NCBI RefSeq assembly: GCF_003002065.1
Contig: NZ_PVZG01000017.1
Location: 62,001-126,000, forward strand
DNA length: 64,000 bases
Direction: 5' to 3'
Origin: Pseudosporangium ferrugineum
Lineage (GTDB): Bacteria; Actinomycetota; Actinomycetes; Mycobacteriales; Micromonosporaceae
The notes under the pieces are model-generated. The model saw only the letters and a list, made by a program, of their open reading frames with translations, was not told the origin of the DNA and did not search any database. Positions within the stretch are counted from its first letter, which is position 1. Each line of letters begins with the position of its first letter. The translations under genes and the position numbers were made by a program. Shown here one piece after another: positions 4,335 to 4,605 of the stretch.

Positions 4335-4396
4335 TGAAACTCCTTCTCGCCGGCTCCCGGGGCCGGCGTCCCCGGGCCTGGGCCGGCTCGTTGCAA

Positions 4397-4427
4397 ACGA
4401 AAAGGCAGCGACTTCGCGTCGCTGCCT
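4397..4427 (-). terminator. aroG: Rho-independent terminator in the aroG leader (attenuator)
   Basis: On the minus strand a perfect 9-bp stem (GGCAGCGAC/GTCGCTGCC, 4404-4412 with 4418-4426) closes a 5-nt loop and is followed by TTTTCGTTTG. It lies between the leader peptide frame and the aroG start, so on the aroG transcript it would stop transcription early. CCGGCAG, directly before the stem on the transcript (4428-4434), is complementary to CTGCCGG inside the leader frame (4477-4483), which offers a competing pairing. Confidence 0.75.
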
Positions 4428-4462
4428 CTGCCGGCCCTGCGGGGGTGTCTCAGGTCATGACC

Positions 4463-4537
4463 TCATGGCCGAGCCACCGGCAGTGCCGGCCTCGTAAACC
4501 ACGAATACCAACGGGACACGCGGCCATGGTAGCCCAT
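4463..4537 (-). CDS. aroG leader peptide (aromatic-rich, attenuation)
   Basis: A 24-codon frame upstream of DAHP synthase on the same strand, with ATG at 4537 and TGA at 4463-4465. Residues 9-14 read RWYSWF: two Trp, one Tyr and one Phe in five consecutive codons, with another Tyr at position 3. Aromatic residues at this density in a short frame just before a terminator are the hallmark of ribosome-mediated attenuation, as in trp and pheA leaders. Ribosome stalling at the Trp/Tyr/Phe codons would favour antitermination. No good Shine-Dalgarno sequence or promoter is visible before the ATG. A competing out-of-frame ATG at 4527 gives a 25-residue peptide without the aromatic cluster. Confidence 0.7.
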   Translation of the reverse strand: MGYHGRVSRWYSWFTRPALPVARP

Positions 4538-4605
4538 GGATGGCGGACGGTGTCCGTCAGCCGGGGTATGGGCACATGCAAGTTGCGTGTGCTCACATGA
4601 GAGCC

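Follow-up and report, generated by a model that had tools for sequence, protein, structure and literature searches.

The aroG leader and its promoter

The window (the whole stretch of 64,000 nucleotides analyzed here, from contig C17 of an 8.65-Mb actinobacterial genome) carries aroG on its minus strand, and the closest named relative of the AroG protein is that of Paractinoplanes lichenicola, with 83% identity. Upstream of the gene lie a short frame with a run of aromatic codons and an intrinsic terminator (Table 1). An earlier, sequence-only reading had placed here a frame with W-Y-S-W-F codons, followed by a stem and a tail, and all of these are present at that place on the minus strand. 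The terminator that it described as a 9-bp stem is there, with a stem of 10 bp once the outer A-T pair is included and a tail that reads TTTTCGTTTG, also written TTTTCGTTT or TTTCGTTT. A simple promoter and terminator scan called neither element at the aroG leader.

Table 1. Features of the aroG leader region in order of transcription (z values are from swap tests on 104 leaders unless another number is given)
Feature	Positions	Strand	Support
-10 box TACCAT	4526-4531	-	6 nt before GTG 4519; TAnnnT in 155/161 leaders
Leader-peptide frame GTG...TGA, VSRWYSWFTRPALPVARP, 18 codons, probably leaderless	4463-4519	-	
Segment N, 5' end GTGTC; possible partner GACAC 4449-4445; antiantiterminator-like	4515-4519	-	N:C z -9.7 (96 leaders)
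Control codons TGG TAT TCG TGG TTT (W Y S W F)	4496-4510	-	Sequence
Segment A, GGCCGGC, 4 nt past the last Phe codon	4485-4491	-	A:D z -12.5
Segment B, GGTGGCTCGG, partner C	4469-4478	-	B:C z -10.8
Segment C, CTGAGACACC	4444-4453	-	B:C and N:C swap tests
Segment D, GGGCCGGC, partner A or E, abuts terminator	4430-4437	-	A:D z -12.5; D:E z -9.7
Intrinsic terminator T, AGGCAGCGAC-GCGAA-GTCGCTGCCT, then tail	4395-4427	-	T1:T2 z -18.3
Segment E, GCCGGCCC	4380-4387	-	D:E z -9.7
Segment F, GCCGGC, directly before Shine-Dalgarno	4349-4354	-	E:F z -4.6 and -5.9 (96 leaders)
aroG Shine-Dalgarno AAGGAG	4340-4345	-	Sequence
aroG, class I DAHP synthase, 359 aa	3255-4334	-	PF00793, E 8.6e-85

The sequence-only reading began the leader at ATG 4537, and that alternative frame does exist, giving MGYHGRVSRWYSWFTRPALPVARP in 24 codons with its stop at 4465-4463. 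A start at GTG 4519, and hence a frame of 18 codons, appears more likely, because 155 of the 161 leaders detected have a TAnnnT motif 6-7 nt upstream of their start (the detection rule permitted 5-9 nt). The same motif is described as the mapped -10 motif of S. lividans (PMC8079986). Both ATG 4537 and the TAC that had been counted as an early Tyr codon overlie the promoter; the TAC lies inside the -10 box.

We also searched the window for the pattern TAnnnT, 6-7 nt, a start codon and at least three aromatic residues within the first 13. Exactly one frame on the two strands has it, the aroG leader, and there were no matches in 100 first-order Markov strands of 64 kb. The second DAHP synthase of the genome is of class II (L206, G000:C5:338609-339892), and a scan before it with the leaderless rule gave no aromatic leader; a looser scan that dropped the -10 box requirement gave some short aromatic frames, none of which conforms to the leaderless rule. 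Between aroG and the divergent gene there is also a near-palindrome, CACACGCAACTTGCATGTG at 4573-4591, that is almost identical in five other loci (L083-L086 and L102) and is a candidate operator.

Conservation of the aromatic codons

Within the order, a leader with Trp, Tyr and Phe codons stands before 153 of 181 class I aroG homologues, with two of the three residues in a further 12 and no leader by rule in 16. These 181 upstream regions are a sample and no census: they comprise the window's own, 23 loci from a search of the genus, 17 from a family sample and the yield of further searches in the order, and they exclude L106-L108, the first of which has a leader and the other two of which have none. 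Nine of the 12 leaders with two kinds of residue have Tyr and Phe and three have Phe and Trp, one of these three (L210) being probably spurious. The 16 regions without a leader include one miss of the rule (L109, where a leader is present), seven from a single distant family (f16, 47-50% identity), five from genomes with other copies (L212, L214, L215, L241 and L267) and three single copies that have no leader peptide (L162, L209 and L240). The gene itself was found in 23 of 23 other genomes of the genus, in 169 of 200 genomes of the family sample, in 63 of 150 of the order sample and in 101 of 121 of another family of the order, and the leader together with the terminator occurs before DAHP synthase in five families of the order. 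Both the W/Y/F codons and the stem that the sequence-only reading proposed to follow in relatives are thus conserved (T1:T2 z of -18.3 for the stem), and its observation of Trp, Tyr and Phe codons together before a DAHP synthase extends to most of the regions sampled.

Named genomes give a similar picture, with a leader in 22 of 26 actinobacterial loci; the carriers include Micromonospora, Kribbella, Nocardia, Rhodococcus, Amycolatopsis, Gordonia, Tsukamurella and a Streptomyces, whose leader has Trp and Tyr only. One of the four loci without a leader (L009) has a W-Y-W-R-F frame that lacks an early stop. Two loci of one genus of the same order (L255 and L256, from genomes of 2.4 and 2.7 Mb) have leaders that read W-R-F-Y-F.

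The order of the aromatic residues is much less constrained than their presence. Among 161 leaders there are 24 distinct aromatic-residue strings, but most leaders retain the same set of residues, a sign that selection acts on the amino acids of the leader. (Statistics on codons, strings and spacing use 161 of 166 detections, with L018, L037, L054, L069 and L210 excluded.) The detection rule of at least three aromatics missed eight leaders with Tyr and Phe only, which were counted later under a looser rule. Nine leaders keep Tyr and Phe and have no Trp, with strings such as Y-R-R-F and Y-Q-R-F (L183, L184, L188, L190, L192, L193, L198, L199 and L204); they are confined to two genera, g28 and g60, in which other leaders retain Trp, and these nine losses indicate that Trp is not indispensable. 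Choice of codon is just as marked: the 161 leaders use TAT 163 times and TAC 5 times, and TTT 175 times and TTC 41 times, whereas the long frames of the window have the opposite preference (TAT 22 and TAC 281, TTT 8 and TTC 371). The rare TAT and TTT codons at control positions may slow decoding or leave the start region unstructured.

That a terminator and a short frame without function should have come together here by chance has in its favor that short frames are easily found, and nothing else; against it stand the single match in the window with none in the simulated strands, and the conservation, by which this explanation is already refuted at the level of sequence comparison, so that we give it practically no weight. 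The leader element is real and conserved across the sequences compared, it is probably functional, and its reading as a sensor of three amino acids is well supported by the codons that are kept. In the searches of known families, the Rfam covariance models gave no match at gathering score in the window or in 13 related loci, and Pfam and NCBIfam gave no match for ten leader peptides. In L100, L109 and L102 we observed stretches of leader that are apparently inserted or duplicated (VSQTWAFYWLQHFYFRGPARAG and VSRWYSWLPTYSWFEWPAFAG), as if the sensor had been lengthened.

Coevolving helices and the modeled effect of ribosome stalling

Pairing within the leaders was assessed with a swap test, which is free of alignment and compares the pairing of a segment with its own partner to that with the partners from other leaders, over 2000 permutations. 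(A MAFFT alignment of 64 leaders left segment C unaligned between genera.) The segments were N, which spans the start to the final aromatic codon; A, B, C and D; T1 and T2, the two arms of the terminator; E; and F, ahead of the Shine-Dalgarno sequence. Besides the window's own leader, 113 actinobacterial leaders have a terminator by rule; the sample for folding and swapping covered loci up to L205 and held 104 non-redundant leaders of these 114, with 96 in an all-pairs run, and leaders from later searches entered the tests solely where they have no U-tract, from one scan.

Pairing with the own partner beat all 2000 permutation means among the 104 leaders for A:D, B:C, D:E and T1:T2 and, with a weaker signal, for E:F, and the all-pairs run on 96 leaders added N:C and again gave E:F (z values in Table 1). 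The leader sequences are related, so these permutation counts are not probabilities, and the helices of the same data that carry no signal serve as the control, namely A:B, B:D, A:E and A:T1 on the 104 leaders. An A:B hairpin was dropped on this ground, as was a pairing of B with the left arm of T that can be seen by eye in some leaders (z of -1.6 and +0.1). Since A:D and D:E coevolve, and B:C and N:C likewise, D would have A and E as alternative partners, and C would have B and the 5' end. The pairing noticed by the sequence-only reading, of leader bases 4491-4485 with 4437-4430 just before the terminator, is A:D and is borne out by its swap score. Its suggestion of alternative structures holds in that mutually exclusive helices coevolve, but none of them takes the stem of T: in the all-pairs run on 96 leaders T1 coevolves with T2 alone. 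In each of the 104 leaders the most favorable A:D duplex either comes to within 3 nt of the terminator stem or runs into it, in a search that permitted an overlap of up to 4 nt and with internal loops in some duplexes. In 28 leaders without a U-tract the swap signals are weak (z of -3.5 for A:D, -2.4 for D:E, -3.8 for E:F and -2.0 for B:C), and N:C gives none (z of -0.2).

To model a stalled ribosome, all bases were barred from pairing between the 5' end and the position 13 nt beyond the first base of the codon in the A site; in the unstalled state the ribosome was placed at the stop codon. The measure was the energy cost of losing the terminator, best stall minus stop. The equilibrium probability of T was discarded as a test, being uninformative at 0.96-0.98 in every state even for E. 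coli trp. That T forms in every modeled state would also fit a leader that mainly makes a terminated small RNA or a peptide acting in trans, like the trpL products of Sinorhizobium, where trans action is reported for the leader peptide peTrpL (PMC7298713), since a short RNA would then be yielded throughout. We consider this very improbable here, because clades that differ in the remainder of the peptide share the aromatic set and its position before aroG.

On this measure the best stall lowered the cost in each of the E. coli controls, by 9.3 kcal/mol for trpL, 13.7 for thrL, 8.4 for leuL, 7.9 for hisL, 14.9 for pheL and 14.0 for ilvL. The 104 actinobacterial leaders with T gave a mean of +0.3 kcal/mol (S.D. 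3.1); 13 of them reach -3 or lower, 60 lie at 0 or higher, and the lowest value is -8.8. Individual leaders do look classical (L097, L127, L146 and L138, -7.3 to -8.8). For the window the cost is 14.3 kcal/mol at the stop codon and 20.6 and 18.0 with the ribosome stalled at the first and last aromatic codons, which is the wrong direction. An antiterminator that overlaps T was therefore rejected as a general rule, given this mean and the arms of T that coevolve solely with each other, and in the leaders with T no antiterminator was found that both competes with it and is favored by stalling. The sequence-only reading had seen here the parts of a classic attenuator, and in this respect it has to be revised: stalling makes T no cheaper to lose, and A:D abuts T and does not compete with its stem. 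Classical switching of the window's own terminator is not supported by the model.

D:E behaves differently in the two groups of leaders. Where T is present, the cost of losing D:E changes on stalling by -1.8 at Tyr, +0.9 at the Trp that directly precedes the last codon and +4.5 at the last Phe, so in the model D:E is not classically switched. In the 28 leaders of the clades without a U-tract, D:E is the hairpin after the stop codon, and its loss relative to stop changes by -8.1 kcal/mol at Tyr, -4.8 at Trp and +1.3 at the last Phe, with -6.7 at the Phe two codons before the last that 22 of the 28 possess. In these leaders A:D serves, by the same model, as a classical antiterminator, and in the 22 with the extra Phe it does so for each of Trp, Tyr and Phe. 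For the attenuator proposed for the window, the modeled ribosome covers A at the last Phe codon and leaves it free at the Tyr codon, so that Trp, Tyr and Phe would differ in their effect.

We then considered the base of T. Opening its basal 3 bp costs 7.62 kcal/mol at the stop codon. With the ribosome stalled, the cost is 7.60 for a stall at the first aromatic codon, which lets A:D form, and 6.67 for one at the last; the stall that permits A:D is thus without effect in the model. An exchange of basal pairs on docking of A:D is not borne out by these energies and was set aside, as the mean of -1.43 is reached only with the best stall and the gain comes at the last codon, where A:D is impossible.

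The finding that no helix competes with T favors an explanation in which stalling works through coupling and factors (Rho, NusA/NusG) and not through the base pairing of T, with unpaired C-rich segments as loading sites; Rho-dependent termination has also been suggested below candidate cysteine leaders without terminators in mycobacteria (PMC1262725). Against it stand the coevolving terminator and T-rich tail of all 114 folded leaders, and we judge it unlikely. In another alternative T is a constant partial brake and the stall acts on translation of aroG, A being masked so that D:E pairs and E frees F beside the Shine-Dalgarno sequence. A:D, D:E and E:F do coevolve as a chain of mutually exclusive neighbors (more weakly without the U-tract), F adjoins the Shine-Dalgarno sequence, and one paper terms aroR, the aromatic leader of Corynebacterium glutamicum, a translational leader peptide (PMC7356990). 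However, the Shine-Dalgarno sequence opens no more easily when the ribosome is stalled: stop minus last stall averages -1.62 kcal/mol over the 91 leaders that have T, where opening becomes easier in 14 and harder in 64, and -0.15 over the 28 that lack T, where it becomes easier in 3 and harder in 6. A run on 42 leaders went in the same direction. Control of translation through this site is unsupported by these numbers, and we regard this alternative as quite improbable.

A proposed mechanism and its relation to known attenuators

We somewhat favor a ribosome-dependent attenuator of aroG that reads the charging of the Trp, Tyr and Phe tRNAs together. Transcription would start at GTG 4519 or 1-2 bases from it, and ribosomes would load directly on the 5' end, as the position of the -10 box suggests. 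With ample aromatics the ribosome would reach the stop codon and T at 4427-4395 would end transcription. If one aromatic is short, the ribosome would stall at the W-Y-S-W-F codons and the leader would refold (A:D or D:E, N:C or B:C), and more transcripts would run into aroG; stalling would probably raise aroG expression in this way. The link from the stall to T is the least certain step, and our best guess is that the A:D hairpin acts at the base of T by stacking or crowding. As the energy model gives no exchange of pairs, the effect of A:D would have to be one of stacking, crowding or timing, or a link via factors such as Rho.

The window element may be of the same stock as the leaders without a U-tract, with a U-tract terminator placed between D and E. 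More broadly, we can imagine a family of leaderless attenuators in which any of the three charged tRNAs gates the first step without an antiterminator that takes the stem of T, A:D docking on the base of T and D:E, itself an attenuator hairpin in other actinobacteria, being the second alternative; we hold this wider proposal to be possible and rather doubtful. We regard the element as a form of leader-peptide attenuation that is probably new. Attenuators of the textbook kind respond to the amino acid of a single pathway branch. The supply from DAHP synthase matters for the aromatic precursors of actinobacterial natural products. If the proposal is true, the shared first step would have an "any of three" sensor, with a codon string free enough to rewire. 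The leaders with T are also a conserved exception, in a calibrated test, to the rule that the antiterminator overlaps the terminator, and this is relevant to how leader peptides work in high-GC actinobacteria.

The attenuators of the E. coli trp, phe, his, thr, leu and ilv genes resemble the aroG element in their control codons, short leader and intrinsic terminator before a biosynthetic gene and differ from it in the effect of stalling, which lowers the cost of losing their terminators by 7.9-14.9 kcal/mol and does not do so in actinobacterial aroG. A nearer likeness is the three-hairpin attenuator of C. glutamicum ilvBNC, where the antiterminator and terminator hairpins are described as meeting and exchanging three nucleotides while a third, 5' hairpin covers the start region (PMC11857589). 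As described there, the leader starts at the 5' end, as it probably does in the aroG element, in which A:D meets the base of T and N:C resembles the third hairpin; hairpins that meet at the terminator base are found in 104 of the 104 aroG leaders. The ilvBNC leader has other codons and another gene, whereas the energy model of the aroG leader gives no exchange and D:E is an extra coevolving helix.

The closest described case is aroR of C. glutamicum, a leader with Phe-Tyr-Phe before aroF that is described as acting by ribosome-stalling attenuation (PMC11802643, PMC4046766). A review has it respond to Phe and not to Tyr (PMC11802643), and another paper describes control by Phe and Tyr (PMC7356990). 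Like aroR, which is likened here by description and not by sequence, the window has an aromatic leader directly before a class I DAHP synthase in an actinobacterium; the aroR accounts, as far as they were consulted, differ in that Trp is unmentioned. A survey of actinobacterial attenuators from 2005 lists trp, cys, ilv, leu, trpS, leuS and ileS and, in the part consulted, reports no conserved structures before the genes of other amino acid pathways (PMC1262725), and the S. lividans transcriptome is described with eight leaders, none of them before a DAHP synthase (PMC8079986). For a three-aromatic aroG leader we found no description in the portions of the literature searched, and the Actinoplanes case may already be in print. 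Wolf et al. (2017), on Actinoplanes sp. SE50/110, reportedly may list an aroG leader, and Neshat et al. (2014) is said to be the primary paper on C. glutamicum aroR.

Aromatic leaders also stand before class I aroG outside Actinomycetota, in Xanthomonas, Dyella, Burkholderia, Caballeronia, Bordetella, Devosia, Bradyrhizobium and one Chloroflexota MAG (MNANRSFYFWYYGFPMPLAEEG and MSAKFYFYFFWHLKPLADREG are examples). In the literature searched, mostly titles and the openings of abstracts, we found no description of the proteobacterial or Chloroflexota leaders. Fourteen were folded (L025, L029, L032, L036, L037, L040, L041, L050, L055, L059, L061, L081, L018 and L014), picked by eye from 21 candidate loci among 54, with a doubtful hairpin chosen by rule in L014. 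Twelve have Trp, Tyr and Phe, and L018 and L037 have Phe and Tyr only. Their mean is -9.1 kcal/mol, and 13 of the 14 lie at or below -3 and are thus classical, so the test does detect classical attenuators before aroG; stalls at Tyr in L036 and L040 give about 0. On the wider proposal, the proteobacterial leaders would follow the same three-amino-acid logic as the actinobacterial ones with quite a different RNA layout. The left arm of the terminator (CCGCCAGC or close to it) is in most of them complementary to leader bases such as GCTGGCGG.
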